From: Isoetes taiwanensis
Taxonomy: Eukaryota > Streptophyta > Lycopodiopsida > Isoetales > Isoetaceae
Direction: 5' to 3'
Assembly: GCA_021234155.1 (NCBI GenBank)
Contig: JAJEKV010000055.1
Coordinates: forward strand, 1,345,090-1,409,089
Length of the DNA stretch: 64,000 nucleotides
How positions within the stretch are numbered: the stretch's first letter is position 1; the number at the start of each line of letters is the position of its first letter. Below the pieces are notes generated by a model. That model worked only from the letters and a program-made list of their open reading frames with translations, ran no database searches and was not told the origin of the DNA. Shown here one piece after another: positions 11,060 through 57,300 of this stretch. A program made the position numbers and the translations under genes.

Positions 11060-13480
11060 TGTCTACATCATTCAACAAACTGTAACAGAACAGCGATTCA
11101 CAATCAGAATCTACAAGATGAAAGAGCAATAAGAAATGAATAGGGAGCTCTGTTGCAGGAGCTCTGCATGAAAGACATGTCACTGGAAGTCCAACATACA
11201 GAAGGGTGCCTGTGTCTGCCATGCCTCCAACTTGCTGCTTCCAGAAACCTCGCTGCATCTACCATGCTTGCAAACCCGCTAGACTCCCAGAGACATCTCG
11301 AAAACATCTCCAAAAACTAGAGACATCTCCAGAATCTAGCTCCTCTGAATCATGCTCTACAGAACATCTCCAAAATTCTTGTCCAGCTGAAACCCATCCC
11401 CCATGGCCATGCCGCCCTTACCATGCCGCAGTACCTCTGCGCTATCGCCTCCACGCGTCGCTTCTCCACTGCCACAACCGCGAACACAAAGAAAACCCAA
11501 TCACACCGACCCACCATTCAAAGAAGAAAGTCTATTTACTGACATCAGCATTATACTAAATAGGCATACAAATACCCCCATAAACTGAGGACTTTATCTA
11601 CGCCCGATTTGGGTTATCCACCAAGAAAGAGAAACTTAATATAGTTTCATTTTGGAAACTATATAAAGCTTCAGTGGAAACTATATTCAGTTTCCCTGAA
11701 GTTATATTCAGTTCCCCTCAAACTTAAAAAGTAGTCTTTCTATCCTGTCGTTTTCTTTGAACTTTTGCAATGATTTCTAATTGTGTATCTAGGCTTCCAT
11801 ATCTGCAGCAGAATCTAATGCATGCGCTTCCATTTAATATGCATCAATTTGCAAGAACAAATTTGCAAGAATACTTCATCCGGCAAGAATTTGAAGCAGG
11901 AATTTGAGGGGCATGCCGTTGTTGCCTTGATCTTGATCTTGGTAAGTATGTAGATGCTGAATTTGTCTTGTCTGCTGCATTTGTTTTGTTGATTGTCGGA
12001 TTTAGAACCCAAAGATTTGATTGTTTTCTTGCTACAAGAGATGCCCAAGTAGAAAATGGCAGAGCTTTGCTACTAGAGAGGCCCAAATAGAAAATGGAAG
12101 ACCTTCTTATTCTTTTACTTCATCCGATCTTTTTGCAAAACACAATGTTGTAAAATTAGAGCATGATTCTACAAGACGCTCTTGTCTCCCTGCAAATCGA
12201 GGCATGATTCTGCAAAAAAAAGAATCTGTTGTTTTATATTTTGCTGTTCTATTTTTGATGGGCGGATTTGAGTCCTCCCTTTTCTTGCTCAACTCTGAAT
12301 GCTCAATTTTTGCTAGGCGGATTTGGGTCCTCCCTTTTCTTGCTCAGCTTTGAATGCTGAGCATAAATTATTTAATAGAGCGGCATTGCATCAGAGCATC
12401 GATGGCATATAAAAAATAACCGAAGCATTAAATCGTTGCCCTTGGCATATCTAGCTGACTACTGGCATGAAATGAAACCCCAGATTCGGCAGGCGGCCAT
12501 TTTGGCACAAAGGACAAATGCATGCAAAGGATTTCCAGCTCCACATTCATTTAGATGCCAGATTTGGAACAATGCTCAGACCCAATGCTTGATCAACGCC
12601 TTTTCTTCACTAATTTGCTTAGGATCGGCCATAGTATTGGATATGTATTATCGGATATAAATAGCATTTTATTTGGGGAAGAAATTACATACACGGCCGA
12701 TTTTGGGCCCAGTTGCTATCCCAAAATCTAATGGGGGTCCTTGTGCGTCCATAGCCATGGGAGTTGTGCAACTAAGTTAAAATCGAAGGGGCACAATGGT
12801 AGCATGACCTTGTTGAGTTTCTGGGGCGGGAATATTTGAAACAGGGAAGACCTCTCAAATAAAGTAGCAGATTTTCGCCACAGCATTTATATTTGTTTTT
12901 TGCCCTCCAATGAGTGGCTGGAATTGGAGCGGTAAGACTTAGAAAAGGGAATGGAAAGTAATTTTGCCAGAACAACAATCGGCAAACTGAAAGCACCGAT
13001 TATGATGCTTATGAGCCATTGCTGCAGATTAAGAGGAGTCGTGTTGGCCAGCTTTCCAAGAAACTCAACAAGGAAAATTTGGAAGGTAACTGTAACAACA
13101 AGAACCGTAATGATCGATGGTCACCTAAGGAATGCTCTGCCGAGGAATGCTCTGTCCGATTTCAGAAATAGTTCGAAAATGTTTTTGCTTCAAGCGAGAA
13201 TCCCAACCCCCTTAAGATTTTGTATTAAAGCTTCACCTTATTATCTTAATACACTTTGATTTAAAAAACCTGGCCTTAGATTTAAACTTGTTGCTTAATA
13301 TTAGGGCGAGCTTGTTGCTTAATATTGAAATAAAAGGCAATTATACACTCTATTTTTTTGTGGATTTACAATAGTTTAAGAGTGTATATATGGTTAATAG
13401 GATGTATTTGCAATTGTCTAATTGTGTGCATATAATATTTATGGTCTTTTAATTAAAACATAATTTTTCTAGCACTTTAC
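11060..13480. other. Intergenic DNA with short tandem duplications
   Basis: No gene recognised. 11640-11735 has repeated GGAAACTATATTCAGTTTCC-type words, the same family as at 16380-16470 and 20650-20860. 12261-12363 is a 55-bp tandem duplication (ggcggatttgRgtcctcc units starting at 12261 and 12316). Two shorter copies of GAGATGCCCAAGTAGAAAATGG lie near 12040 and 12080. Confidence 0.5.
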
Positions 13481-16214: not shown

Positions 16215-16624
16215 ATGGTTCCCCTTCAAATTCAAAATCTTAGCGTGCTCCTTACGCTAAGAGGACACCATTTAATGCATGTTGTCATACAATCTTGCAT
16301 ATGTGCCACAAGATCTTATACACGTGCCTACACTCCTCCATTTTATTTTACAAAATGGAAACCTTATAAAGTTTCCTACCAAATTAAAAACTTTAGGGAA
16401 ACTTAATGTAGTTTCTTTGGAAACCTAATGTAGTTTAAGTTTCTTTGGAAACCTAATGCAGTTTCAAATTCGAAATATTGGGTACTCCTCATGCTAAAAA
16501 GACACCATTAATGCATTTGGGAACACAATCTTCCATAAGATCTTACCCATGTGGTAGATTACATTTTGTCATACAATCTTGAAAATGTGCCACAAGATCT
16601 TACACACGTGCCTAGACTCTTTCA
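16215..16624. repeat. Tandem-duplicated repeat with GGAAACYTAATGTAGTTTC motifs
   Basis: Two diverged copies of about 250 bp stand in tandem. Matching landmarks are ACACCATT(T)AATGCAT at 16266 and 16503, GTCATACAATCTTG at 16284 and 16578, and CACAAGATCTTA followed by ACACGTGCCTA at about 16307 and 16601. Copy 1 continues as ctcca|ttttattttacaaaatgg. Copy 2 is interrupted after ctttca by Helitron H1 and resumes at 20641 as ttttattttaaaatg. The intervening DNA carries GGAAACCTAATGTAGTTT words. Confidence 0.75.
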
Positions 16625-16998
16625 TCTTCTTTATTAAAAAGGGAAGGCTTTGATCTCCGTGCCCGGAACGCCGCATGTTACGCCGCATGCGGCGTTCCCT
16701 CTCCTACATGCGGGAATTTTTCCCCCCTAGCGTCTCTGAATGCAAAATCTTTTGTCCCCATTTCGTATTTTGGCAGCGTTTGAGCAGATGGGCGATCCAC
16801 TAAACGGTTTTGCAGCGGCAGCAAGGTTGCATGCGGAGCTTCTTTGTTCTTCTATAAAGCTTTGTCCTTTTTACGCCTTTGTTTCTAGGTTCTCAGTTTC
16901 TTCATAAACTCTACATCAAATTTGTCACTATATCACTTTCTTTGGGCTGGTTTCGCTTCTTTATTGTTATGTGAAAGAATTGACCGTGGACGAAATAT

Positions 16999-17335
16999 AT
17001 GAGGAGCTGTAGGAGGGAAGCATTAATCCAGAAATGGCAAACGAGCTGAGCTCTATGGCCAAGAAACTGAGGGAAATAGTTATAGCAGAAGTTGTCAAAT
17101 TTGCCGCCTCCATTGAGTACGTTTTTGAAATGGTTGTTTGAGGAAAAGAAGTTCAAGCCCACAATGTTGCTGCTTATGGCTTCTTCCTTGACTGTTGTGG
17201 TACCTGACAATGATAGCAGCGCATTGCTGAGATTACTGAGATTATCCATGTTGCAAGCCTTCTTGACGGCAGTGTCTTGGAGAATGCTGATACAAGAAGA
17301 GGTATTGGGTCTTTGAATTTTGTAATGGGCAGTAA
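16999..17335 (+). pseudogene. Captured solanesyl/polyprenyl diphosphate synthase fragment
   Basis: Fragment of a plant trans-prenyltransferase, the enzyme that builds the isoprenoid tail of plastoquinone or ubiquinone. In order it reads NPEMANELSSMAKKLREIV and AEVVKFAASIEYVFEMVV, then in the next frame KKFKPTMLLLMASS, then in another AEITEIIHVASLL and ENADTRRGIGSLNFVMG. This order matches the N-terminal third of plant solanesyl diphosphate synthases. The first aspartate-rich motif (family form HDDVLDDADTRRG) is changed to DGSVLENADTRRG, so two metal-binding Asp are lost. One TAG and at least two frame changes are present. It lies entirely inside Helitron H1, in the element's sense orientation, with no downstream catalytic half. 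Confidence 0.82.
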
Positions 17336-17439
17336 TTTCGTTGTTTTCGTTGAGGGCTTTTTACTTGCTACAAAATATTGCTATACTTTTTTTTCTTCTC
17401 CAATGTTTCTACGATTTAGGGAGGTTTGAGATCATTTTG

Positions 17440-17905
17440 CTTCTTATTTGTTCAGGGTTTCTAAATGAGAGCAGTGGAATGCAGCTCTGTTGTGAAGTTC
17501 GTGAATGCTATGCAAGATGCTATGCCATTTTACGGAAAGTGCAAATGGAAGGTTTCAAGAAGGTATATGTTTCAAGTAAATTGCAAGAAATAAAGTATTC
17601 TGTTCTAATTACCTTGACTGTGGTGTCGGCAGCTGCGCCTTGCAACTGGAGAGAAGAGATGAAACCAACGGCAGTAGTTGAGAAAAAATATTTTTCCATA
17701 AGATGATGTTCATGGAATCAGTGAGATGGTAAGCATCCCAATACACATAAGTTTCGGCTATGGGGCAAGAAGGTGTAAAAGGTTACAATAAATAGCAGCT
17801 TCATATCTTCCTGATCCGCAACAGCCAGTTGGTCCTACTGAGAAACCTGCAAAGAACAAGCGGCAAAGCTTCAGCTCTAATCTAAATCTTCTGACCATAC
17901 CAGGT
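17440..17905 (+). pseudogene. Exon-like captured fragments of unknown origin
   Basis: Two blocks inside H1 look like exons. Around 17457-17700 an acceptor-like TTTGTTCAG is followed by coding-like sequence including GMQLCCEVRECYARCYAI. Around 17805-17902 a block reads LPDPQQPVGPTEKPAKNKRQ and ends at CCAG|GTATGA. Neither is recognised. They may belong to the same donor genes as the neighbours or to others. Confidence 0.3.
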
Positions 17906-18914
17906 ATGAGCTACTCACCATATTTGAAAGGATTTTGTGAAGCATCCAAAGTTGTGCTGTATAAGTCTAAAACTGTCAGTTTCATTCCAGATAGGCTCCA
18001 CCATTTCATGTCTTCTATGCTGCGTTTTAGTCTTGCGTTTAATGCTTGGGCATCTTGGTTCAATGTACTCACGCATGCCAGGTTTCCTTTACCATATAGC
18101 GTAATCTGTGAGGTTTCGTATATAAATTTGCTTCTCGCTGAGGATTGTGGTTTATTGTCTGGTTTACTACAAAAAGCACTCCATCAGCAGGCTCTTCATG
18201 GGGCTCTAATGGCATGGAGTGCAGGTTAGATTTCTTTCTGCTTCGCTTTCTCCCGACACTAAATAATCATTTGCATATGCTATTTTTTTTGTAGGGGGCA
18301 AACCATTGGCAGAAAATATCTTTGCTTGAGCAAATATTGGATCTTAGATGGGATTGTTTGAAGCTTTGCTTGGCCAACAAATGCAAACACAGAAATCTCA
18401 TTATTTTGGCATATGCAAATAATTGGTCTTGAGCTATTGAATGTTTTGAGATGTACCACAGAGGCATAAACCGAAGCAAAGGTACATTGTCTATTTCATG
18501 GAATAGAATCTCATGCCACACTGGCCTCTTCTTTTAAAGATTCGCCAAGTTGCATCACAAAAGATCCAGAAGCGCTTTTATTTTTGCGTATTTTGCTCAG
18601 TCTTGATGTGAATGTGTTGCATTATCCAAATGCGATCCTGCATGTTATCCAACGATGTTGTTTATGCTCTTTATCCAATGATTTTATATTGACAAGTCCT
18701 ACCTATTGCTTTATTGGCTGAGATAACAATGCTCCACTAGATGCATCAGAGGCTGCTGAGGTAGAGACCCTGAAAGAGCAGGCATGCAGGCTGGTAAGAT
18801 GGCTGCAAGTGAGCAATAAGGCGTAACATAGACAGTTCATTGTTAAATGGCAGGAGCTTATGTTGTCATTGTTTCAATCCTAGGTATTGTTGTTATAATT
18901 TTCAGCTTCTCATT

Positions 18915-19020
18915 ATGAATTCTCATTTTAAACAAGGGCTAAGTGGTATTCTAGCAGATGAAATGGGACTGGTAAAACCATTCAGGCAATGGCCTTTTTT
19001 GCCCACCTTGAAGAGGTTGG
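18915..19020 (+). pseudogene. Captured SNF2-family (INO80-like) ATPase exon fragment
   Basis: Reads KQGLSGILADEMGL, then after a one-base frame change GKTIQAMAFFAHLEE. This is helicase motif I (Walker A, DEMGLGKT) of a SNF2 chromatin-remodelling ATPase. The run IQAMAFxAHLEE is closest to INO80 proteins as I remember them. An intron-like TTTTCAG precedes it near 18904. Only this exon is recognisable. Other DNA within H1 (for example about 18731-18795 and 19619-19710) looks exon-like but is unassigned. Same orientation as H1 and as the prenyltransferase fragment. Confidence 0.75.
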
Positions 19021-20029
19021 TTCTGTAGAATTAAGCCTCTCACAAGTGCACCTGCTTCAGTCTTTGAGTAATTGCTTATTCTGTGTCGTCTCAAGGCGTT
19101 GCCTGACCTTAAGATGATAAATGAGATTTGTTATTTACTGGGGTGTGTATGATTGTCTGGAAGTTATATACCTTGGTTTTTGCTTTGAAATTATGGTTGC
19201 AATTGCACAGAAGAGTGATGCTCGGCTTTAGCGAACCCTTATGTAGCAGGTTGTCATTGGTTACAGAGCAATTACTGTGAGGAAGGCCACATTTCCTTGC
19301 TTTTTTGCTATTATGAGCCAAATTATCCAGGTGCATACTTGATGTATATACCTCTCAACAAGATAAATTCTTAGCTCATTCCTAGCATTTTAGACATACA
19401 TAGTTTTTTATTGGAACAAATGTAATATTATTTAGCATTGTGGTCCTGTGTTAAATAAGTTCTTTTCATGAATGCCAATTAGCCATCATAAATGTGTTTC
19501 TGGATTTCCCGACCAGAAGAGCAAGGCATGGAGTGCAGGTTAGATTTCTTTGTGCTTCACTTTGTCCTCACACTAAATAATCTTTGGACTATGAGTTTTA
19601 GATGGTCTCACTGGAGACCTCTTTAATTACGACCTAGGTGATTTGGACCTGGAAGAGCTGACAAGTCTTGCAAATGCCACCATAAGCAGTGGAGGAGATA
19701 ATGTGTTTCAGGTTTCTATGCTCGAAGAAACTAAGAGTAAAGGATGGCAGGTTTAGGTAATCTTATTATTATTGTTACACATGAGAAAATAATGAGCATG
19801 ACATACTGTTTGTTAGCAGATTCTTCTATGCCAGGGATAGGTCAGTCCTGGCATGTATAAATGACTGCTATGGTAGAAGAGCATTCTTGCATGTCCGCCA
19901 AGCATTAGAAGAGCATTAATACTATTTGGATTTAATAGTTTAATAGCATTGCACATATATGGCAGGCAGTACAAGTTGTTACAACAGCATCAGATGATGT
20001 TGTATACTTCATTGAGTCCTAACTGGAAT

Positions 20030-20610
20030 CCAAGACCTTAACCAATCCAATACCTCTCCAGACATCCTTATATTTTACAACTTTTTATTCCATCTATAAA
20101 TACCATTGTAAAGGTACCCCCTTTTCCTTTTAGGTTCAATATCCATCTAGAATAAATTTGACTAGCATCACGTTAACGCTCACTTGCATCCACTCGAATA
20201 GTTTGCTCAATGGTTATGCATGCATACACGCATTACTATCACCTTGGGTTCACAATTATCACTAGACTAGATACTATGAAGTCATAAAAAACATATGCAC
20301 ATACATATCCCACTTCCAATACATCTAACGTCCACTATTCAATTCACTCCAATCTCAATTGTATTGATTAACAATTGCAATTTTCGACAAAACCCTAAAC
20401 TATCAAAAACATCAATCCATTCCATTACATTTACCCATTCTATTCCACACTATGCATGCTATTATTTTATATTGTCAAGGCTAATGCTAACAACCCCAAA
20501 CCCTTTACACCTGGCACTCCAATACCTCTTCGAACATGATTATATTTACCAACTTCTTATTCCATCCATAAAATCCATTACACGTACCAATTTCATGCAT
20601 CCAAGATTAA
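20030..20610. repeat. G-poor 3' region of H1 with an internal direct repeat
   Basis: The plus strand is almost devoid of G in several lines (for example 2-5 G per 60 bases at 20281-20460) while C and A/T are common. A block of about 70 bp is repeated directly: 20047-20118 and 20519-20588 both begin CCAATACCTCT and share TTATTCCATC(T/C)ATAAA. No coding capacity is seen. Confidence 0.7.
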
Positions 20611-20640
20611 TGCCCGGCGTCGCCGGGCACACGTTTCTAG

Positions 20641-20870
20641 TTTTATTTTAAAATGCGAAAACCTTATAGAGTTTTCCCAAAAGTAAACTACGTATAATTT
20701 CCATAAAGGAAACCTTACAAGGTTTTCACTAGAGGAAACCTAACATAGTATCATGGAAACTTAATACAGTTTCAATGGAAACTTGATGTAGTTTCCATTG
20801 AAACTACATCAAGTTTTCATTGAAACCACATTAAGTTCCAACGAGAAACCCTATGAGGTTTCCGGCGAAC
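20641..20870. repeat. Host repeat resuming after H1; 50-bp palindrome
   Basis: Continues the interrupted repeat copy: ttttattttaaaatg...accttata(g)agttt parallels 16340-16375. It is rich in GGAAACTTGATGTAGTTTCC-type words. 20773-20822 is a near-perfect palindrome with 22-nt arms (CAATGGAAACTTGATGTAG on one side, its complement on the other) and a 6-nt centre. Confidence 0.7.
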
Positions 20871-21755: not shown

Positions 21756-21840
21756 GAACAAACGAGCACTCTACAATGTCACCAGTTGGGGGCTTAGGCT
21801 ATAGCGTAATTCTTTCCTCAGTTTTTGATTTATTAACACA

Positions 21841-24800
21841 ATGCATATGCTCTTGCTAATCCTTGTATCAGTGATTCACTTTTCCTTTGGGCAGAAAAGA
21901 GAGGAGGTTTTGGCCCTCCTTGCATTGAAGTCTGCATGGCAGGATGTAAATGGGACCCTTGCATCCTGGAACGTATCATCAGGACAGCCCTGTGGTTCAC
22001 ATAAATGGTTTGGTGTAGTATGCACAAATCATGCATCTCAACATTCTATATTGGAGCTGTCTTTGCCGGCTGGATCATTAAAGGGAGGCTTCTTAGTTGC
22101 TCAAATTGGCGCTTTGAAGAATTTGAGAGTTCTTATCCTTGCAGGAAACCAAATTTCAGGTTGCATTCCTAAAGAAATAGGTGAGCTTGCCGAACTGAGA
22201 ACTCTGGATTTGTCTACTAATTTACTAGAAGGTAGAATTCCCATTGAGATGGGAAACTTGAGCAAGTTAGTGGCCCTTTCCCTTGGGCACAATCATTTAG
22301 AAGGTCAAATACCAAGTTCTTTTGGAAATTTGACTTCTCTTCAACTGCTCGATCTTCATGATAACTATATCTTTGGGCGCATTCCATCTGCTTTCGCGAA
22401 GCTTACAAATCTACAGATTTTGTATCTTCAGTCAAATAGAATTTCTGGATTGATTCCATCAGAATTGCAGAATTTAAAGATGGTAGCTGTTTTACTTTTG
22501 TTCTCAAATTCTCTAGAAGGGAACATTCCAGCCGTTTTGGGCAATTTGACGAACTTGGAGGCGCTCGTCCTGTGCGACAATCATTTATCTGGTATTATTC
22601 CCCCCGAACTTTTTCAGCTTCCTATGTTGAGGGTCCTCCACCTGGACCACAACAATCTTTCAGGGATCATTCCTTCCCAGTTGGGCTCACTTCCTTGCCT
22701 CCAAACAATGTGCTCATCTTATTCATCTAGCAAGTTTTACAGTGCACCATCTGCAGTAAAGCTGAGCTTCAACAACTTAAGTGGCAGCATACCAACAGAA
22801 ATTGGGTACTTGCAAGGCTTGGAGATTCTAGAATTGGGTTGCAACAGATTAACAGGTATTATCCCGCCAGAGCTTGGCAACATGAGCTCACTGAGGAGTT
22901 TAGATGTGCAATTCAACAACCTATCTGGCTATATTCCCATGGAATTATCTCTACTTGGAAAACTGGAAATTCTTTCCCTGGGGTACAACAATCTGCAAGG
23001 GCCTCTTCCATCTGAGATTGGCATGTTGCCATCTCTTCAGATTTTGTACCTTGCTAACAATAGTTTGAGTGGGGTGATCCCATTGGAGATAACTTATCTG
23101 AAGACACTGAAACAGCTAAACTTTGATTTCAACTATTTCAGTGGGACTATTCCATCAGATATTGGCAACTTGGACAATCTTATTGTGTTCTTTATGCAGC
23201 ATAATAAGCTTAGTGGACATATCCCTGCACAGCTAGGAAAGCTCGACCAGCTAAGGTTCTTAAACTTGGGGTCTAATAACTTGACTGGTGAAATTCCGCC
23301 AGAGTTAGGCAAGTTACGTAAATTGTCTCAGCTTCTATTAAATGGCAATCACCTCTATGGAAGCATTCCTCCTGCTCTTGGAAATTTAAACTTTCCGATC
23401 GGCGAAACTATGCCATCTTACAGTAATTTTTTTGCTGGAGCGTCTGTGCTTGACCTGGGCTCAAACAATCTGTCAGGCAGTATTCCTCAAGAGCTTGGTA
23501 GCTGTTCACATTTGACCATTCTTAATCTTGGGCATAATCAGCTGACTGGTCTTATTCCTGGATCATTAGGAAAAATTCAAAATTTGACTGCTCTTAATCT
23601 GGGAAACAATTATCTGAGGGGTCCATTGCCATCAAGCCTTACTAACTGCTCGAACCTGATCAATATTCAGTTAAAGAACAACTTTTTGACTGGAAAGATA
23701 CCCAGAGGCATTGGCCAGCTACTGCATCTGCAGATTTTAGAGCTTGGGTACAATTTAATAAGTGGTGAAATTCCTTTAGATATTGGTGATTGTGAAGGGT
23801 TGGTCACTTTGATTCTTAGTGATAACCACCTGGAAGGAGAAGTACCTTTTACCTTAACTAGATTGCCAATCTTGCAAACCCTAATTCTTGCAAGAAATCG
23901 CTTGCAGGGATCTCTACCCTCAACCCTTGCCTTCCTGGCGCAACTGCAATACTTGGACTTAAGTAGCAATCAAATTGCTGGAAATATTCCATCTGATATT
24001 GGAAACATTGGAGACCTTCATTATCTTGATTTGAGCTCAAACATCCTTAGTGGATACATACCTTCAAGTTTGGGATCCCTCTTCTATCTCGAGACACTAT
24101 ACCTTCATAGTAACAAACTTGAGGGACAGGTACCACTTCTACTAGGTAACTGTATTTCCCTGACTCACTTGAACCTGTCATATAATGCACTTGTGGGGGA
24201 GATACCAACGTTTGGCATATTTACACGATTTGGTGTAGATTCTTTCTTTGGTAACAAGGGCTTATGCGGTCTTTTGGTGGATGTGGCATGCAGAGCTCCA
24301 TATCTTTCGCAGCTATATGTAAAGGAGATCCACTTTGTGATTATGGTTATGTCTGCCCTGGTGATATCTTGTATGCTCCTCCTTATAGTTTTTTTTATTG
24401 TTTCATACCGTGCAAATCAAAGCAGACAACATGAAAACATTCCTATTATTTATGATGGAAAAATGGTTATGTTTGTACCTCGCTTCATCTTCGGATACAG
24501 TGATATTGTTGCTGCTACTGGAGGATACAGCTCAACATACTTGCTTGGGGATGGTGGATTCGGAGCAGTCTATTGTGCTACATTACCAGATGGATCGAAA
24601 CTTGCCGTGAAGGTTCTGAGTAGGCAAAACGCACATGCTAAAGCTTCATTTGAAACGGAAGTTCAAATGCTCAGCCACATTAGGCATCGCAACCTTGTAG
24701 TCCTAAAGGGATTCTACACAAGTTCTGTTGATAAAGTATTATTTTATGAGTACATGCCGAATGGAAGCGTGCATGACTTACTGCACAATCAAAATAGATA

Positions 24801-25365
24801 TCCAGAAACCCCGCAGTGGTCTATACGACAAAAAATAGCTCTTGGAACAGCTCAAGGTCTGCTGTATCTTCACCAAGGTTGCTCTCCACAGATAGTACAT
24901 TGTGACGTAAAATCTAGCAATATTCTTCTTGATGAAGATCTAGAGCCACACATTTCTGATTTTGGAATAGCACATTCGATCGAAAATTATGCAGAGTATG
25001 CAACAGGCAGAGTGGCAGGGACCTTGGGATACATTGCACCAGAAGCTGGATCAAGCTGCAGACTAACTGAAAAAACCGATGTATATGGATATGGAATTGT
25101 TTTGTTAGAGCTTCTTACAGGGAAGCGACCAATTGTTTGCATAGAAGGAACATTGACAAACTTAGCTGCATGGGTTAGAGATCTGCATCAAACGAAACAG
25201 CTAGAAAAGGCAGTTGACACAAGTATGCTTAGTTCATGCACATCTTTACCCAACCTTGTCCACCTTCTAAAGTTAGCTATTCTCTGCACCTCCTATTCTC
25301 CCATTAGGAGACCAACGATGAATCAGATTGTACATCACCTGGTAAACATGCAAAATGCAAACTGA
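21841..25365 (+). CDS. LRR receptor-like kinase, non-RD, intronless
   Basis: A 1174-residue membrane receptor kinase in one uninterrupted frame. Residues 1-18 form a signal peptide (MHMLLLILVSVIHFSFGQ). An LRR N-terminal domain follows, with PCGSHKWFGVVC. About 25 plant-type LRRs (LxxLxLxxNxLxGxIPxxL) fill residues about 75-800, with two irregular breaks near 285 (TMCSSYSSSKFYSAPS) and 520 (GETMPSYSNFFAG). The membrane segment is about 830-853. The kinase has a glycine loop GDGGFGAVY (about 903-911), Lys924 in LAVKV, HCD at 1020-1022, DFG at 1040-1042 and APE at 1067-1069. Cys instead of Arg before the catalytic Asp makes it a non-RD kinase, common among immune receptors such as the FLS2 group. 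Ligand and function are unknown. The ATG chosen begins the signal peptide. No neighbour suggests a pathway. Confidence 0.96.
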   Translation: MHMLLLILVSVIHFSFGQKREEVLALLALKSAWQDVNGTLASWNVSSGQPCGSHKWFGVVCTNHASQHSILELSLPAGSLKGGFLVAQIGALKNLRVLILAGNQISGCIPKEIGELAELRTLDLSTNLLEGRIPIEMGNLSKLVALSLGHNHLEGQIPSSFGNLTSLQLLDLHDNYIFGRIPSAFAKLTNLQILYLQSNRISGLIPSELQNLKMVAVLLLFSNSLEGNIPAVLGNLTNLEALVLCDNHLSGIIPPELFQLPMLRVLHLDHNNLSGIIPSQLGSLPCLQTMCSSYSSSKFYSAPSAVKLSFNNLSGSIPTEIGYLQGLEILELGCNRLTGIIPPELGNMSSLRSLDVQFNNLSGYIPMELSLLGKLEILSLGYNNLQGPLPSEIGMLPSLQILYLANNSLSGVIPLEITYLKTLKQLNFDFNYFSGTIPSDIGNLDNLIVFFMQHNKLSGHIPAQLGKLDQLRFLNLGSNNLTGEIPPELGKLRKLSQLLLNGNHLYGSIPPALGNLNFPIGETMPSYSNFFAGASVLDLGSNNLSGSIPQELGSCSHLTILNLGHNQLTGLIPGSLGKIQNLTALNLGNNYLRGPLPSSLTNCSNLINIQLKNNFLTGKIPRGIGQLLHLQILELGYNLISGEIPLDIGDCEGLVTLILSDNHLEGEVPFTLTRLPILQTLILARNRLQGSLPSTLAFLAQLQYLDLSSNQIAGNIPSDIGNIGDLHYLDLSSNILSGYIPSSLGSLFYLETLYLHSNKLEGQVPLLLGNCISLTHLNLSYNALVGEIPTFGIFTRFGVDSFFGNKGLCGLLVDVACRAPYLSQLYVKEIHFVIMVMSALVISCMLLLIVFFIVSYRANQSRQHENIPIIYDGKMVMFVPRFIFGYSDIVAATGGYSSTYLLGDGGFGAVYCATLPDGSKLAVKVLSRQNAHAKASFETEVQMLSHIRHRNLVVLKGFYTSSVDKVLFYEYMPNGSVHDLLHNQNRYPETPQWSIRQKIALGTAQGLLYLHQGCSPQIVHCDVKSSNILLDEDLEPHISDFGIAHSIENYAEYATGRVAGTLGYIAPEAGSSCRLTEKTDVYGYGIVLLELLTGKRPIVCIEGTLTNLAAWVRDLHQTKQLEKAVDTSMLSSCTSLPNLVHLLKLAILCTSYSPIRRPTMNQIVHHLVNMQNAN

Positions 25366-32825: not shown

Positions 32826-33570
32826 TCAAAGATTCATGACAATGTGGTGATACATGTCGTGATAGATGTGGTGATGCAAATGGTGCATGTGGTGAATCAT
32901 GTGGTGAACCATATGGTGAATCATAGGTGGCATGTTGGAGCTTACGTGGCATGTTGGAGCCTAGGTGGCATGTTTGAGCCACCTTGGCATGTTGGAGCCT
33001 AGGTGGCATATTTGAGCCACCTTGGCATGCTTGAGCCTTTACATGACCTTTGTTACATGTTTGACTTTCATTGACCAACATGTTTGGTGATGCTAATGGT
33101 GCATGTGGTGAATCATGTGGTGCATTTGGTGAATCATGTGGTGAATCATGTGGTGCATCATAGGTGGCATGTTGGAGCTTACGTGGCATGTTTGAGCCAC
33201 CTTGGCATGTTGGAGCCTAGGTGGCATATTTGAGCCACCTTGGCATGCTTGAGCCTTTACATGACCTTTGTTACATGTTTGACTTTCATTGACCAACATG
33301 TTTGGTGATGCAAATGGTGCATGTGGTGAATCATGTGGTGCATTTGGTGAATCATGTGGTGAATCATGTGGTGCATCATAGCTGGCATGTTGGAGCTTAC
33401 GTGGCATGTTTGAGCCACCTTGGCATGTTGGAGCCTAGGTGGCATATTTGAGCCACCTTGGCATGTTGGAGCCTAGGTGGCATATTTGAGCCACCTTGGC
33501 ATGCTTGAGCCTTTACATGACCTTTGTTACATGTTTGACTTTCATTGACCAACATGTTTGGTGAAGCGTA
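32826..33570. repeat. Higher-order satellite-like tandem repeat
   Basis: A nested tandem array. The marker ACATGACCTTTGTTACATG occurs at 33041, 33259 and 33515, giving periods of 218 and 256. The 38-bp difference equals one extra copy of a subunit built of GTTGGAGCCTAGGTGGCATA and TTTGAGCCACCTTGGCAT. Between markers, TGTGGTGAATCATGTGGTG words form a shorter array. A lone piece of the subunit reappears at about 35036-35060. Confidence 0.85.
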
Positions 33571-38375: not shown

Positions 38376-40531
38376 TGGGGCATGTTACATCAGGGACATC
38401 AAAATACAATTACATATTACATCAGAAGCAAACATATTACATTGAAACAAGGGACATCAAAATACAATTGAGCATGGAATTGAGTTTCTTATATTATTCC
38501 CAAACAAGGCAAGACACAACAACATATTCAAAATTTCTGAATCATTTCCTAACCTGTAAGAATGTGTTCAGCTATTCTTCATCAGACATGCTATCTTCAT
38601 CAGATAAAACCTCGGGCAAGTTTTCTAGAATCTTTTCCTCATCTCACCGGTCTAGCACAGAAACAGCTTCGAGCACCTTTCTTGATCTCACGCTGCATGG
38701 GAACTCGAATAGCACAAATTTGAGTAGAGAATACAAGTGACTTTGGCTCGTTTGTCAACAACTCATACATCACCTTTGACCGAGGCTTCTTTCTATAGTA
38801 AATGCCCTCCACAACGGTTTCACCTCTCATAAACAAGTTTCCGCTTCGCTTGAAGTCATTTTCAACTTCAAATTTTGGCTTGGTGCATAGCAACATCCAA
38901 AATACGTAATCCTCCTCGCTCCTTTAGGTGCAAAGAACCGCAAAAGTCGTCTCCTTCTCTAAGTGCTTCGCAAGTACATTTGCCAAGGTTGAGTATAGTG
39001 GCCTGGTAGACTTGCGGGTCTCTTCCACATCCGCATGAACATTGGAGGATGGTTCAACGACTACAAGGTCCCATTCATCTACATACAATTTGTTCTCACA
39101 CATGTCCCATTTTCCATCCAAACAATTGCTTTGCAAAAAACATGATAGCTTTCTCGGTATGTAGTCAGTGTTGGATTTCCGTCTTGAATCTATGGACTCA
39201 ATGAATTTGCCTGGTTTTGCGAATTGTCTCTCGCACCCCAAGCCTTTTTCCCCGTTGATATCCTCGTGTTTTATTTCCCGTAAGTATCTCCTAACTTTTC
39301 TTCCATTTTCAGTCCACTCGGATGTACCACATTGAAATTGTTTCTCCGCAATTTTCACCACATCATGGGCATTATCTAGTTTAATGTCGATGTTTAAGCT
39401 GTAGACCTCGTGATCCATCTTTTTTCAATTCACCGCTGCCTTCCCATCATGTTCACCTTTTCCATGGTTTGATCCAAAGAAGTTCCACATCATGTTGACC
39501 TCCTATCACACAACCGTACTTTCCAACAAAATAAAATAATCGGCTGCTTTGAATTGTGATGCAAAGACCATTTGAAAATACATAGTGTTTGTTTGGGGAC
39601 ATTGCCTTCTCGCTTTAAGTAACTCAAAATGTTTCATAAAACAATGTTGAACAAAAAGTGTGTCATGTTCCCTATCATCCGGCCACATAGTAGTGTGTTT
39701 CTTTCTCAATGGTGTTCTGCTCTCGGATCAACCCGATAGGTTATTTGAACAAATATAGTTATCCGGTTGTTGACCCAAATAAGATGGACCGAACTTCATT
39801 CTCGCTCCTTAAAAGTATAATTCTCTGCTAAGTCAACCACGGATAGGTAAGCATCTCGTGCAAGTTATCAAGGAGTTCTTTGTAATCGGGCACCTCGCCA
39901 CTTAATATATATGAAGTTGTGTAAAGGAAATTTTGGAAGCTTCTCCAACATTTTGTTCACCAAAGGAAGACTTGCAGTTTCATTGTGTTGGTGAACTAGC
40001 TTAGACTTCTTTGCCGCCATCTCTCGAATACAGCTTTTTCATAGTCTAGGTATTCCCACTTCACCATGTCACTATCACTAGATTGTTCATGTGGGCGATA
40101 GGGAACTTCTTAATCCCACACTCTTTACACTCACCCGCAATGCATTCCCTCTTATGGTAAGGTTGGAAGCTAGTAGTTTTCTCACATAAAATTCCCCGCC
40201 ACGGACTTCTTGTGCTACTTATTTTGTATTCGACGCCATGATTCACCATATATGTCCGACACCGCAAAGTTGACAAGTGTACATTTCAGCTTTTGGGTGC
40301 TTAGTTCTCATACTATTGAAGCCATCTATTAGCATCTGCATTCTAACATGGTATATACAGCAAGAACTATTGAAGTCCTTTAATTTTACAACAAACCATG
40401 GTTTCAAATTTTCAAACATCCTCCTGCTTGATCATAACACTAGGATGTTCCGCCTTGAATTTCCCCCAACAATTGCAACCAAAAGGAAGATAACAAGGTG
40501 ATCAAAGATATTTATTGCACACTACATTTTC

Positions 40532-40739
40532 CACCACACTAGACACCACATAGCATATATTACAGACATTCATCTTACACCGCGTTATTCACCACACTAG
40601 GCACCACAAAGCATATATTACATAATTTACTGTACACCATATTGTTCACCACACTAGGCACCACATAGCATATATTACATCATTTATTTTACACCATATT
40701 TTTCACCACACTAGGCACCACATAGAATATACTACAGCA
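40532..40739. repeat. 57-bp tandem array, left part
   Basis: Units of 57-58 bp containing CACCACACTAGGCACCACA and TAGCATATATTACA start at 40532, 40590, 40647 and 40704. The last unit stops after 36 nt where H2 begins. The array continues at 45601. Confidence 0.9.
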
Positions 40740-42419
40740 CTAGAAACGTGTGCCCGGCGATGCCGGGCATTAATCATGGACGTGTGGAATGGGTAAATGA
40801 AATTTTAATTGTGTCTGTGCCCATAGATGTAATGCGTTGCTGGGCTAATTTCCTGACGTGTTTTTACAAAAGAGAAAACAATGCTTTATAACGAACATGA
40901 GAGGCAATTAAATCTACCTTTAAAGACGAAATTTTGGAAAGATAGATCCAAAACTTATGATCAAAATATCACCCTTAGTGGTTAAGTACATAAAAAAGAA
41001 ATAGGTAAAACATAGCAGTAGGGCAAAACCTCCTTGGGCACCTGCCAGCCGGTGTAGCAAAAATCGATGTATAGTCGATATGTGAAAATCCCACCCTAAG
41101 AAGGTTTGAGTGGTGACCTATGTCTAAAGATGGAAAATGGATAGGCTTGCAGGCCCCGACTTGTGGGGCCAGAAGTTATATTGAAAACGCAACTGGCAGT
41201 GCTTTTTTCTTGGTGATGCATATTAGTTTGTTGTTGAAAATTTGATGCATATTAGTAATCCATGATCCTCGTTCTTTATTGCACTGAGCCAACACGATGA
41301 GCATATTTATGTTTCTCTACGTATGCCATTCTATTGCATTTCAATTTTAAGTCTATAAGCGTTTAATCTGAATTGCACGAATATCCATTTCCCAATGCTT
41401 GCATTAATCACGTTCTCGTATGGGTTTACTTCCTCTTCATACCAAGCTTGTGAACCACTTTCTCTACAACGTTAGGCAATTTTATTGCAAGCGCGACCAA
41501 ATCTAACACATCATCTCTATCACAAACATGGGCCAATGCTCAAAATCTAGGATTCCTCATTCACCAAGCCTCTCTATGTCTATCATGTTCTATAGAAACC
41601 CTACATTCAAGGTGGTCATGAAATGGTGAATAACGAATGAAAGTAATAATTCAATAGGAAAAAAGAAGTTGGAAGAAGACACTTTTAAGTAAGACGCCTC
41701 TTAATTTGATAATTTAGACTTCCACTTTGGTTATTCTAAAAGTTTTTGGTAGTTTCTCTAAGCATTATAATTTGCACACTTCTCCTTTCACCAGTGCATC
41801 AAAAAATGGATGATTAATTGTTTTGGCAATTGCGTACTTGTGTTACCTCATTTACGTCCTTTAGGTTGAATCCATATGCTCATTCATGAGAATGAGCTTC
41901 TGCATGTCATAATGTGCACTTTTCATAGAATTTCCAAACGTGATATGAAGATTGAATTAAAGATTGGAAACAAAGAAAAATGCATCTTTCAATATGACAT
42001 GCTACAACAAAGAAAAATACATCTTTCAAAATTATAGTGAGGGAACATATGGAAGAACCATACAACCAAAGCCTGGAGTTTGGTTGTCTATTTGGACTTT
42101 TATCTCACCTCACCTAGTAACTGCAGTTATCTTATCTGCAATCCTGACCTGTCCAACTTTTTGTTTCCAACATGCAAGAAAAGCATATTGCAATCATGAG
42201 TTGGATGCATAAAACCGTGAGTTCGATGTGTGAAGACCCTTCAAAATTTTCATAAAAAATAATATTCAGCAGTGCTAGATTTACCCAAGGGTGGCTCAAA
42301 ATAGCAAAGGTACTAACAGTGCCATGTTTCTGACTCCCATGTCAGTGGAGCTGCCCTATCTGCTTCTTTAAATCAGCCGATGCAACCTGTTAAGACCACC
42401 TGCTTATCTAAATCATTTG

Positions 42420-42660
42420 ATGCCATGTCTGCATTAGCATAAAAAGGTCCAAAATACTGCCCAACTTGTAAAGTCTTCTGATTTGGTAGCTTGAAAATAT
42501 TGAAGAGCATACTTGGCTGCTATCTAATGAATGCTGCATAAACTTACAAATTTGTTGTAACAGCTGCCAGCCCAAACTATCTATCCCAAATACTTTATCA
42601 TCACCAAAAAAGCTTGTTAGTTCAATGTCCCAGAGAATCAATTTAATTATGGACCAGCAT
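42420..42660 (-). pseudogene. Exon-like fragment inside H2
   Basis: The minus-strand reading ILWDIELTSFFGDDKVFGI then SLGWQLLQQICKFMQHSL is open for more than 60 codons with plausible protein composition. Not recognised. Probably captured host coding sequence. Confidence 0.35.
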
Positions 42661-43019
42661 ACAAAGGCATGTTAATTCGCAGTCTACAATAATATTCAGA
42701 CATGTATACTAAACCATGAACTGACATGGATACTAAATCATAAACATACTCTGCCTATGAACTGAGCAGCATTTTAGCAATCACATCTATGAAGAGGCTT
42801 CTGCAGAATCCAAAAAACTTATGCTTGAAGATCAGAGATTTGAGCAGCCTACTACACAGATGCATTACAATATAATAAACCCACTTACATTAAATCACTC
42901 TATGAGGGTCATTCTATGGTGCATTTTGCCAAATTTCCAGATGCAGCTATTGGATAGTGCGTTAAGTGTAGATGAATGTAGCAACAACTACTTGAATACA
43001 CAACATTTACCATGCTCTT

Positions 43020-43190
43020 GATTAGGAGCAGAGTCACATGGTATCATGAAGTATGGACCATGAGGCATAATATATTTCTCCACATTGACAGTTTTTGGAA
43101 GCAGAGCAAAACATTTTGTTTCTTTTTGCAGCCCCTTTGAGCATGGCAGATTTGAGTGTATTATGACTTGGTTTCCTATAGGAACATTCG
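43020..43190 (-). pseudogene. Exon-like fragment inside H2 with splice sites
   Basis: After TTCCTATAG the minus strand reads NQVIIHSNLPCSKGLQKET, then KTVNVEKYIMPHGPYFMIPC and SAPNQEHG, stopping at CATG|GTAAAT. Both boundaries look like splice sites and the frame is open, so this is very likely a captured exon of a host gene. I cannot name the donor. A further exon-like piece (APKWQRNRQQQLHSATSG between AG and GT) lies at about 44505-44450. Confidence 0.45.
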
Positions 43191-45359
43191 CGTCAGTTAA
43201 CAATGATAAGATCTATATTGTAATGACATAAAGCAAAGGGAATATAGTGACAAACAACAAAGGGATTGCTTCAAGAATTACCATAATGTACAATCGTGAT
43301 CATTGCAGTTGCTAGGGAGAGCTTGTTGTGACCTCGAGATGCATCTATTGAATGAGATGCATCTATTGAATGCTTATATCTACGATCTGCTCCAAACCAT
43401 CAATATATTCAGATGGATAATCCTGCACAGAATCCTGCACACAACAAAAGGGGTTTCAGAGCATTTCAACACAGGCTCATATATTCTGATGTTCATTGCA
43501 CATCTAAATGCATCCACAAAATTGAACATCTATAGGCCGTTGGATTTGAAGCTTGTTTTGCCTTCATAACATCGCATTGTTGAAGCCCGCCCTATTTCCC
43601 TGTAGGCTATGGTACAGGTATATGTGCATGCCTAGGTAGAAATAGATGGGTCTAATTGGGAAAGCTTCTCTAGTGTATATGAAGTTTGACCATAAAAGAG
43701 AGGAGCCAAGCTTCAGAATAAAAGTTACAACTGCAGTACCTATTGCAAAGCTGCATTATGCTCTTTGGACATGTGTGCCATATGTAGCCACCTTTACCAT
43801 AGTACTGCAAGCCACTTTGAAAATGCAATTACTTTGCTCTGCAATCTAATCTAAGCCTTGGCAGAAGAACATATATAGACATGAGGACAATAAAGTACGA
43901 AAAAGAATTAGCTCATCTTACATTGAACTCAATGTTGTTATTTAATACTGCCGCAGATTAGCCCTTCCATTTTTTATAATGGACAGTACGAAGGTAGGAA
44001 CCTGCAGCAAAACAAATACCTAGCATGTGATCATGCCAAATGCTCTAACAAAGTTATCATTTTGCATGAAAGAAAAAACAGAAAAATCCGTAAGGGGCAT
44101 AAAGGATGAACAGAAAGATAGTCTTTGTAAACCCGTGTCTAGTTCTCTCATTCAAAAAATAAATGTCGTTGCAACATCCATTACCTTGAAAGCTCTCTCC
44201 ACCCAGAACTGTGGCTTTGGGAATCGAAATTTGAAAGCCATACCATGTTCACTAAAAACTTACAAAGCCTTTAGGGCTTTGTTGCTGAAGGAGAAGGCTA
44301 AAAAGTAAAGTATAACAGTTTCACGAAACATCAAGTAAAGGAAAAGCTTTGCTACACAAAACGGATGACATGTGTAAAGAAGTTAGTCCAATCCAAGAAG
44401 CAACTATGTGTAAAGAACTATGTTTGCAAAGAAGCGAGAGAAAAGGGCTACCTGATGTTGCCGAATGAAGCTGTTGCTGCCTATTTCTCTGCCATTTTGG
44501 AGCCTTGACAGAAAACATAAAAAGGCACACAATATGTATAATGCCAAGGGAGCATAATTGAGCCATATTAAATTCTGTAAAAGCAAGAAATACGTCCTCA
44601 GACATGGAAAGGACACTGGTTGTACTTGAAGAACCAATTCGACTCTAAAATAAAGTAAATTATGCCAAGAGAAACATCCTTTATGGCCACAAAATTTTTA
44701 ACATCACTTTCTAGCAGAAAAAGATTCCAGAAGTAATGAGATTAAAAACAAAGATTTTCGATGCATTACTCTTATCTCACGTGAAATAAAAAAAGGTTGG
44801 ATAATCCAAATCCATGTTTACATACCTCATTCCTAAAAACACCGCTTGAATGCCTTTGTATCAATATACTCCTTTAGCTAGTAAGAATAATAACATGCTG
44901 AGTTCAAAAGGCTCTGTTCTGTAAAAAAATGCTAGTTTAAAGCACTGTTGAGTTGATCCGATAATCTTACCTGCACATAAATTCTTCCTCTAAGGAAATC
45001 CATTTCGAAATTGCCAAGCGACTTAGCCCCTGCGCTCAGACCCCTCTAGGTGATTTCATCCTAAACCTAAATGAAATGACGATTAGGAGAGCATGCCATG
45101 TATATGGCATCAGATGCTGCTGGCGCTTCTCGAGGAGGACTGGGTTGTGGGATCCTCTGCCATTTCAAAAAGCTCAGATATCATTGGACGGTGGAGGATG
45201 GCAAAATGGCCGGATATACTCTCAGAGAAAGTATGAGCAAGAAAAATGGTCCGTCCAGGAAAAAACGCTTTGTTTTCCTAAAACTGAATCCAATAGGTTG
45301 AGCAGGCATCGGCTGGGCTGGATTTTTTGGAAAATAGTAGCATCTAGCACCCTTAGACC

Positions 45360-45490
45360 GCTATCGTCTGCACCAGTGGAAAGGAAAGTGTAGACGGGAG
45401 TGAGAAATCTGAGATGAATCCATAGCCCAGTCCGGCAGTGAGCGTCATGTCTTCGGCAACGTGATTTGAACCCGTAAAGGTAGGAGAGAA
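45360..45490 (-). mobile_element. Possible SINE remnant inside H2
   Basis: The minus strand has a B-box-like GGGTTCAAATCACG followed by ...CACTGCCGGACTGGG..., resembling the post-B-box part of the SINE at 1714 (GGTTCAAATGTCACTGACTA). No A box or tail is recognised. Confidence 0.25.
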
Positions 45491-45600
45491 AAAACATACG
45501 ACCAAAATAGTCCCGCATGCGGGAGAGGGAACGCCGCATGCGGCGTTACATGCGGCGTTCTGACACAGAACCCAACACCCTCCCATTTTAAAAAAGAAGA

Positions 45601-45975
45601 TTTATTTTACACCATGTTATTCACCACACTAGGCACCACATAGCATATATTACAGCATTTATTTTACACCATGTTATTCACCACACTAGGCACCACAAAG
45701 CGTATATTTAGAGCATTTATTTTACACCATATTTTTCACCACACTAGGCACCACATAGCATATATTATAGCATGTATTTTACACCATGTTATTCACCACA
45801 CTAGGCACCACAAAGCATATATTTACAACATTTATTTTACACCACGTGCCTCACCACACTAGGCAGCACATATCATATATCACAGCATTAATAGGCACCA
45901 CACACCACAAGCAATCACTAACCACACCAACCACATATCACAAGCAATCACTAACCACATACCACATACCACATT
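45601..45975. repeat. 57-bp tandem array, right part, plus CACCACA-rich DNA
   Basis: Resumes the array interrupted by H2. CACCACACTAG units start at 45622, 45679, 45737, 45794 and 45852. It grades into irregular CACAAGCAATCACTAACCACA repeats to about 45975, inside what looks like the first intron of the minus-strand transposon-like gene. Confidence 0.9.
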
Positions 45976-54359: not shown

Positions 54360-57300
54360 ATTGATCTAAGTTATTTGAATTATTATAATGGTTAAATGCA
54401 ATGGTTGTGGTCGGTCAAATGAGATAAAGCCACCATCAAAGCATTCAAATAGAAAGGAATGGAGCGAAACCGACGACGAGTTGGTGCCGATTCTCCATGG
54501 ATCGGTGCCGACTGTGAATAAATACAAGAAGGATCAACAATGAAAGGTGTGTGATGATTTTCGGATTCATCAAGGGATGAATGCCTGTGCTATCGAATGA
54601 ATTGATTCGATTTGTAAGAGTATGATTTTCATTTGCTATTAATCAATACCTTTGCTACAGTAATTTCTCTCACCATTGTATAATTCAAGTTGTAGAATTT
54701 ATTGTTTTGAAAAGGTCCATAAAAAGGAAAGAGTTGTATTATCTAGACATTGTATTATCTAACTTTTTATCAGTGGTATCAGAGCCAGGTTCAAAATGTC
54801 TAGCAGGTTTGGGGCATCTCTTCTATCTGGAATAAGTGTATGAAGGTGGTCCTAGATTTCAGATATGGAAAGAGCAAATAAAAAATGTTCTAGAAAATGA
54901 AAACCTATGGGATTTAGTGCAGGATTCTGATGAATCTTCAAGTGTTGTTCCAGGAAGAAGGGAGAGTAGCTCTTCTGACACAAATGCAACAGGGACTACC
55001 GTGAGTAGTGGTGGAAATGAAAATGCTAAGATCAAAGAAGCATATGCCATTTTGACAAGTAAAGTTGGAGCATCCATTTTACTCAAAGTGAGAGGAAAAG
55101 CACCTGAAGAAATTTGGAGGTATTTGCTAAAACACTTTAAAGAAAAATCATCTTCTCAGATTGATATTCTAGACAAATCACTTAGGAAACTAAGGCTCAA
55201 AGATGATGATCTTACTAAGTTTTTTTCAAAGTTTGACAATATAGTAGCAGATCTGGAAGGTGCAAGAGTGGTTTTGACTGAGCAACAGAAGCTCCTACAT
55301 ATAGCTAGGGCTGTGGAGGGGAACAAACAGCTAGCTACATTAATTAGAAATGTAGCAAAAACCAGAGAGACAGCTGAAGATATGATAAGAACAGAGTTTG
55401 AGCAGCATAAGGTACTCTGTGATGACTATGATGACAATGTTGAAAGTGCTGTATACTGGCAGAGGGAAATATAAAGGAAGCAGCTCCAAAATATCAAAGG
55501 AAAGAAGGCAAGTTGGACCCTGTTATCACTGCAAGGAGCATGGACATTTAAAAGCAGATTGTCCTAAGTTAAGAGAAGTAGAGTGCTACAACTGTGGAGG
55601 AAAGGGACACTTTGCAAATAGGTGTTCTAGCAACAAAGGAGGACGGGGAAAAAGCAACAGAGAGAGAGAGTTTCTTTCAAAGGTCGAGGAAAAGGTCATG
55701 GAAAGCAAAATGCCACAATCAATTTTGCTGAAAAAACTGAAGAAGACTCGAGTGAAGAAGATGAGGATGCTAAGGTAAGGAATAATGATATTTTGACTAT
55801 TTCAAAAGGGGAATCTAATGATTTGAATGACATGCTGATATTAGATAGTGGAGCAGAAGAAACAATGACTGGATCAACAAAATTATTCAAGCAAGAAAAT
55901 GAAGAAAGGACTGGATACATTAAGCATGGAAATGGAGAATTGCAAAAGGTTCAGTGTGGTCGTACTCTGGAGCTGTTCGATCTGCAAGAAAAGGCTGTAG
56001 TTCTGAAGGATGTGTTGTGTGTTCCAACACTAGTTAGAAATTTAATTTTAGTAAGTCAGTTAGTAGACATGGGCTATACAATTATTTTTGACAAACTTCA
56101 GTGTACTGTGCTATTTGAGAATAAAATAAAGTTTCTTGGAAAAAGAGTGGGGAACCTTTTTGGCTTGAATATTAATGATTTGCCTGATGGTAATGCAATC
56201 ATTGTTCCTGATATAAATATATGGCATCAAAGGATCTGCCATACCAGTAGCAAAAATATTGAGATCATGATTAAACAAGGAATGATTAAAGCTGACAACT
56301 TAAGCAAAGGAGAAAATATATGTTATGGTTGCATAATGGGGAAGCACTCCAGGTTACCATTTAAAAAATAAAACAAAAGAGCAAAGGGAGTACTGGATAT
56401 TATACACACAGATTTATGTGGACCTCTCAATGTGAGAAGTATGTCTGGAAAAAGATATTTTATTACATTTATTGATGATTTTAGTAGAAGAACCAAATGT
56501 GTATGTCTAAGAAGGAAAGGTGAGGCCTTTGAGGCATTCAAAATGTTTGCTGCAGAAGTAGAGCTTGAGACTGGAAGGAAAATTAAATGCATACGTTCTG
56601 ACAGGGGAGGAGAATACCTATCTGATGAATTGAAAAGATATTGCAAAACTAAAGGGATTAAGAGGCAACTCACTTGCAGATTCTCTCCACAACAAAATGG
56701 AGTGGCAGAGAAAAAAATAGAACAATTCTTAATGTTGTCAGGGCAATGTTGAAACATACAGGATTACCTAACTTTCTATGGGAGGAAGCTGTAAGAACTG
56801 CAGTAGAAGTCCAAAATATGCTACCTTCAACAAGCATTAATGAAGCATGGTTAGGAAGAAAACCTGATTTTGACAAACTGAAAGCCTATGGATGCCTAGG
56901 TTTTGTACATCTTCCCAAGGAGCTAAGGCTTAAACTTGATGACAGGGCAAAAATTGCCTACTTGATAGGCTATGATGAACAATCAAAGGCTTACAGAACG
57001 TTCGAACCAACAAAAAAGAAGACAATAGTAAGCAGGAATGTGATTTTTGATGAAAGCCAATGCTATAAAACCAACAAGTCTTTATCTTCTAGAGTTGAGA
57101 AAAGAGAAGATAATGAGACAACGCAAAAAATGAACAACACATCTATAATTGATAATGATGATACTAACTCTACTATTGTGCAGGAAGATATAACAAATGG
57201 AGAAACACAAAGTCCTAGACTAAAGATCATGAGGCAGTTGAAGCAAAGGGTGGTCATGGGAAAAGAACCAATACCCAAATACTGCAAGAAGAAGCACAGG

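Follow-up and report, generated by a model that had tools for sequence, protein, structure and literature searches.

Two non-autonomous Helitrons of one family with shared ends, unrelated interiors and a 5' subterminal palindrome in a 64-kb window of the Isoetes taiwanensis genome

Results

Features of the locus

The window, i.e., the whole stretch of 64,000 nucleotides of Isoetes taiwanensis DNA analyzed in this study, contains two Helitrons on opposite strands, here named H1 and H2. Both of them begin with 5' TC and end with 3' CTAG, in agreement with the 5' TC and 3' CTRR termini by which Helitrons are recognized. The coordinates of the two elements, their ends, hairpins and palindromes, their target sites and the cargo pieces are listed in Table 1. 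The boundaries given in the original prediction (H1, 16625-20640 on the plus strand; H2, 45600-40740 on the minus strand) proved to be correct. A Pfam search of all six frames at E-values up to 0.5 revealed no domain of transposon type, whether Rep, helicase or other, in H1 or H2, and both elements are therefore considered non-autonomous.

Table 1. Positions of the two Helitrons and their component features in the window
Feature	Position	Strand	Basis
H1, non-autonomous Helitron, 4016 bp, TC...CTAG, between A and T	16625..20640	+	direct reading, blastn, uninterrupted paralogous site
H2, non-autonomous Helitron, 4861 bp, TC...CTAG, between A and T of 57-bp tandem array	40740..45600	-	direct reading, blastn, array register
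Uninterrupted paralogue of H1 target site	16278..16383	+	aligns through joined H1 flanks, junction gap-free
57-bp tandem array, one side of H2	45601..45889	-	tandem-array reading
57-bp tandem array, other side of H2	40510..40739	-	tandem-array reading
H1 5' end common to H2 (80/97)	16625..16721	+	blastn
H2 5' end common to H1	45505..45600	-	blastn, two-sequence profile
H1 3' end common to H2 (54/64)	20577..20640	+	blastn
H2 3' end common to H1	40740..40803	-	blastn
H1 3' hairpin (8-bp stem, 3-nt loop), its end 11 nt from the terminus	20611..20629	+	hairpin scan
H2 3' hairpin (8-bp stem, 3-nt loop), its end 11 nt from the terminus	40751..40769	-	hairpin scan
H1 5' subterminal palindrome (13-bp stem, 8-nt loop)	16665..16698	+	hairpin scan, DNA fold
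H2 5' subterminal palindrome (12-bp stem, 8-nt loop)	45529..45560	-	hairpin scan, DNA fold
H1 second 5' word CCTACATGCGGG, half palindrome	16703..16714	+	direct reading, word list
H2 second 5' palindrome CCCGCATGCGGG	45512..45523	-	direct reading, word list
H1 captured, broken prenyl (geranyl/polyprenyl) diphosphate synthase gene fragment	17031..17378	+	phmmer 3apz, Pfam PF00348
H1 possible SNF2/INO80-type ATPase exon scrap (weak)	18927..18980	+	Pfam PF00176, PDB

The surroundings of the two elements comprise genic, transposon-derived and repetitive DNA. About 1.2 kb downstream of H1, an unbroken frame of 1178 aa from stop to stop (21829-25365, plus strand) encodes a leucine-rich repeat (LRR) receptor-like kinase with LRR repeats and a protein kinase domain. 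A broken Ty1/copia retrotransposon occupies 54836-58423 on the plus strand, with gag, Pol_BBD/pre-integrase and reverse transcriptase matches in four of the five separate frames searched. Together with the synthase fragment of H1 described below, these two neighbors point to a land plant as the source. H1 is flanked on both sides by a cluster of GGAAACYTAAYRYAGT-type motifs (16397-16464 and 20734-20837), which holds all five matches of the pattern in the window; an AT-rich palindrome with a 17-bp stem (20779-20816) lies within this cluster, and a related stretch is located at approximately 11628-11713. Nested tandem arrays with a 218-bp unit and sub-units of 38 bp and 19 bp occupy 32842-33512. 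Rfam and tRNA scans of the whole window were empty.

Insertion sites of the two elements

H2 interrupts a 57-bp tandem array that is present in the window only around this element. When its two flanks are joined, the array comes back into register, and the 60 bases over the junction are identical to another unit at 56 positions. Among 169 boundary shifts tried, the best were the boundaries in Table 1 and an equivalent one-base shift due to a shared T. The joined flanks of H1 (16624 to 20641) align with positions 16278-16383, with 93 of 108 columns identical and six gap columns, all of them to the right of the junction. The same two choices tied for best among 289 shifts of the H1 boundaries, and none of 500 random right flanks taken from the window reached the score of the true joined flanks. 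The H1 target region was itself duplicated, and 16278-16383 is the duplicate without the insertion.

Both elements have thus entered a site between A and T, and neither insertion is accompanied by a target duplication; the shared T makes the one-base shift equivalent. Since the uninterrupted target is visible for H1 as well as for H2, the ends can be placed with single-base certainty, apart from that one shared T. The boundaries of both elements are exact, beyond what the first reading of the sequence could show.

Shared ends and unrelated interiors

The 5' ends of H1 and H2 form a blastn match of 97 columns, 80 of them identical (E = 5e-22), in line with the common end of about 95 nt claimed beforehand; the 3' ends match at 54 of 64 positions (E = 5e-15). 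Identity is thus 82-84% at the two ends. As had also been predicted, the last 36 nt differ at a single position (35/36 identical), which lies in the hairpin loop. The description of the ends as nearly identical therefore holds for these 36 nt of the 3' end but not for the whole 5' end, whose first 30 nt agree at only 23 positions. Helitrons are assigned to one family when their last 30 nt are at least 80% identical, and to one subfamily when the same applies to their first 30 nt. With 29 of 30 identical nucleotides at the 3' end and 23 of 30 (77%) at the 5' end, H1 and H2 belong to one family and fall just short of one subfamily. The original assignment of both to a single Helitron family is borne out by their matching ends, their TC...CTAG termini and these last 30 nt.

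The 3' palindrome of both elements spans 19 nt, with an 8-bp stem, and lies 11 nt from the terminus, within the range of canonical Helitrons (16-20 nt in length, 10-15 nt from the end). Of the seven CpGs in the last 64 nt, H1 and H2 share four; of the three others, one falls in the hairpin loop and two lie upstream of that hairpin. A likeness of the ends by chance was rejected on the blastn E-values above and on a scan for a GC-rich hairpin combined with CTAGT, whose only hits in the 64 kb were these two ends; 30 simulated order-1 Markov sequences gave a mean of 0.07 and at most 1. The ends are not part of a longer common repeat either: the 300 nt flanking H1 on each side have no match near H2 at E-values up to 0.1, and the flanks of H2 consist of the 57-bp array. 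A two-sequence profile of each end detected no third copy in the window, all other matches with E < 1 being reverse strands of the palindromes.

The interiors are unrelated, as had been claimed. Outside the ends and the palindrome or reverse-complement matches, blastn of H1 against H2 gave nothing better than E = 0.2 (cut-off, E = 1). Cargo shared at the protein level was examined by tblastn of all H1 reading frames of at least 20 aa against H2, with the ends and palindromes set aside; the best E-values among these many queries (0.005, 0.008, 0.010 and 0.012) were judged to be chance.

Cargo of H1 and H2

The sense strand of H1 carries part of a prenyl diphosphate synthase gene, broken by several stops. 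Its best phmmer match is the geranyl diphosphate synthase 3apz (E = 1.8e-18), which we take to be an Arabidopsis enzyme, and each of the 42 PDB sequences that match the fragment at E-values up to 1 bears the name of some prenyl synthase. The Pfam family PF00348 matches it with an E-value of 9.2e-5, under its curated cut-off. A second, much shorter piece of H1 is similar to the ATP-binding motif found in SNF2-type remodellers (PF00176, E = 0.011, under the cut-off; best PDB match INO80, E = 0.12), and the frame that follows it has no Pfam match and one unrelated PDB match (E = 0.067). Given these weak scores and the negative next frame, the piece is a lead and not a result; H1 perhaps carries a scrap of an SNF2-type ATPase. 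The other two sense frames of H1 gave two PDB matches at E = 0.2 and none, respectively, which were judged to be chance.

For H2, no Pfam match was found in six frames, and the best PDB match in the three sense frames has an E-value of 0.99. The PDB searches covered the sense frames, and the antisense frames of both elements were covered by Pfam. The view of the pair as gene-shuffling Helitrons is consequently supported for H1, by the prenyl diphosphate synthase fragment, but not for H2, which has no Pfam or significant PDB match. Splice-acceptor-like sites on the sense versus the antisense strand number 4 versus 1 in H1 and 3 versus 1 in H2, compared with 27 versus 26 in the whole window, and the sense strand is T-rich in both interiors; together these give a hint of sense-oriented intron DNA that is too weak to count.

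H1 also contains two internal direct repeats. One of 69 nt (18211-18279 and 19525-19593; 88.6% identity over 70 columns) resembles the same exon-intron border present twice. The second copy of the other, a 65-nt repeat (20043-20107 and 20515-20579; 81.5%), adjoins the common 3' end, an arrangement reminiscent of a duplication of an older 3' end region.

The 5' subterminal palindrome

The palindrome that had been reported near the 5' end is present in both elements, its stem measuring 13 bp in H1 and 12 bp in H2, with an 8-nt loop in each. It is GC-rich, lies at approximately positions 41-74 of the 5' end, and has common stem arms of 11 bp. The second word CATGCGGG, also noted before, takes the form of a full palindrome, CCCGCATGCGGG, in H2 and of CCTACATGCGGG in H1. 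A scan for perfect hairpins (stem of 8 or more, loop of 3-12) yielded 47 in the window; by a GC-weighted score, the H1 5' palindrome ties for the top (22) and that of H2 ranks fourth (20), the rest of the top four coming from one AT-rich palindromic stretch beside H1. The best hairpins in five simulated windows scored 12 to 16. Moreover, 10 of the 14 CCGCATG/CATGCGG words in the window fall within the first 212 nt of H1 and H2.

All 22 positions of the 11-bp stem arms are identical in H1 and H2, although the two disagree in 17 of the 89 columns that follow the first eight (hypergeometric p = 0.0044), and 47 of 51 positions match in columns 42-92 compared with 21 of 33 in the spacer, columns 9-41 (Fisher p = 0.0017); the regions for both tests were chosen post hoc, with the sequence already seen, and concern two copies only. 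Both copies retain the six CpGs of the palindrome in full, compared with one of four elsewhere in the 5' end; the observed/expected CpG ratio of the whole window is 0.46. The hairpin loop is identical at seven of its eight positions because the word ACGCCGCATG recurs there and makes a second, loop-less palindrome, so a binding site on double-stranded DNA fits as well as a hairpin does. With the loop nearly as conserved as the stem, the data fit a hairpin, a plain binding site or chance retention alike.

We are inclined to think that the 5' palindrome and the CCGCATG/CATGCGG words belong to the left-end recognition site of the transposase of this family. They may instead be a neutral passenger, or a host regulatory site, of the family ancestor that was retained as the copies are not very old, an explanation that bears on the role of the palindrome and not on the identity of the elements as Helitrons. 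This is a quite plausible alternative, if one to which we give somewhat less than even odds: there are two copies only, their 5' and 3' ends still share the identity of 82-84% given above, and a comparison of maize and rice doubts the role of even the 3' palindrome, according to the part of that paper available to us (PMC2575219). It accounts less well for the intact stem (22/22) and CpGs (6/6) next to a spacer in which 12 of 33 columns differ.

Discussion

In this study, H1 and H2 were identified as members of one canonical (Helitron1-type) Helitron family, each precisely inserted between A and T, and we put the probability of this reading at roughly 0.93. Every structural feature of canonical Helitrons that we tested for is present in both elements. 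The pair is real and well bounded, and of an ordinary type, both elements being non-autonomous members of a single Helitron family that differ in their interiors.

Canonical plant Helitrons (Helitron1, including those of maize and rice and the wheat Xuan-Feng elements) likewise have 5' TC and 3' CTAG termini, insertion between A and T without duplication, a hairpin of 16-20 nt about 11 nt from the 3' end, and non-autonomous members with common ends and captured gene fragments; unlike in H1 and H2, a conserved 5' subterminal palindrome is absent from their descriptions, as far as the accessible portions of these papers go (PMC2267711, PMC4683698, PMC2575219, PMC13286980). In the excerpts available, the 3' hairpin is the only one described for canonical Helitrons (PMC4683698, PMC2267711, PMC13286980, PMC4067079), and the 5' palindrome, which the original prediction had called unusual, indeed lies outside these descriptions. 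Helraiser, derived from the bat Helibat1, resembles our elements in its TC/CTAG ends and in a 19-bp 3' palindrome located 11 nt upstream of the end, but no left-end palindrome is described in the available part of that study, which found the left end indispensable and the right end less strictly required (PMC4778049). No plant case of a 5' or two-ended Helitron hairpin was recognized in the literature searched, partly seen as excerpts, which is not evidence of novelty, and no paper there combines the term Helitron with an 11-letter piece of the 3' end. Exact-pattern scans found neither the 3' end nor the 5' palindrome in viral contigs, and no 5' palindrome in contigs of prokaryote genomes; as these contigs are viral and prokaryotic, the zero counts say nothing about a Helitron family.

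The palindromes near both ends raise the question of whether H1 and H2 belong to the Helitron2/Helentron branch, which we regard as very unlikely. Helitron2, Helentrons and HINE-DINE-1 elements have palindromes near both ends and asymmetric terminal inverted repeats, according to the parts of the reports at hand (PMC4067079, PMC5148889), and the first 45 nt of H1 contain an 8-nt inverted match to the 3' hairpin that was equaled in 41 of 500 shuffles. However, H2 lacks this match (414 of 500 shuffles scored as high), and no terminal inverted repeat was detected when the first 30 nt of either element were compared with its last 120 nt, shuffles scoring as high in 495 of 500 cases for H1 and 327 of 500 for H2. 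Thus, an asymmetric (sub)terminal inverted repeat is not present in both copies. Furthermore, the target of Helentrons is T-rich (TT), whereas H1 and H2 end in CTAG and lie between A and T. Membership in this branch was rejected on both grounds. Instead of two independent insertions, the pair might represent one element and its internally rearranged derivative, or ends that are alike by chance, but the probability of this is negligible: the two lie within about 30 kb of each other, but their targets are different, each with its own uninterrupted copy, which already contradicts it, the 300-nt flanks of H1 are unmatched near H2, and no significant interior is common to both.

The terminal anatomy and the precise insertion between A and T are observed here, and the steps of transposition follow known Helitron biology. 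By analogy, a RepHel transposase supplied from elsewhere would nick between A and TC, peel off the top strand of the element and halt past the 3' hairpin at CTAG, and the copied Helitron would enter an AT site without target duplication. We propose that the ends of H1 and H2 have been retained because the transposase requires them, and that the insides are unlike because each lineage took up different host DNA, which in the H1 lineage would include the sense-oriented prenyl diphosphate synthase piece. As for the 5' palindrome, it may fold into a hairpin once its strand has been displaced, or it may be read in double-stranded DNA as a site with two-fold symmetry.

The window provides two fully bounded members of one Helitron family, together with an uninterrupted target for each. 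Should the 5' palindrome be general in the family, it would be a candidate left-end recognition site, in the end that is essential for Helraiser in the portion of that work available (PMC4778049). A bolder and rather doubtful suggestion is that this could be a CTAG-ending canonical plant family with a second, hairpin-type site of transposase recognition at its left end, combining Helitron1 termini with a two-hairpin layout in the style of Helitron2. If true, it would offer a plant system for dissecting left-end recognition.
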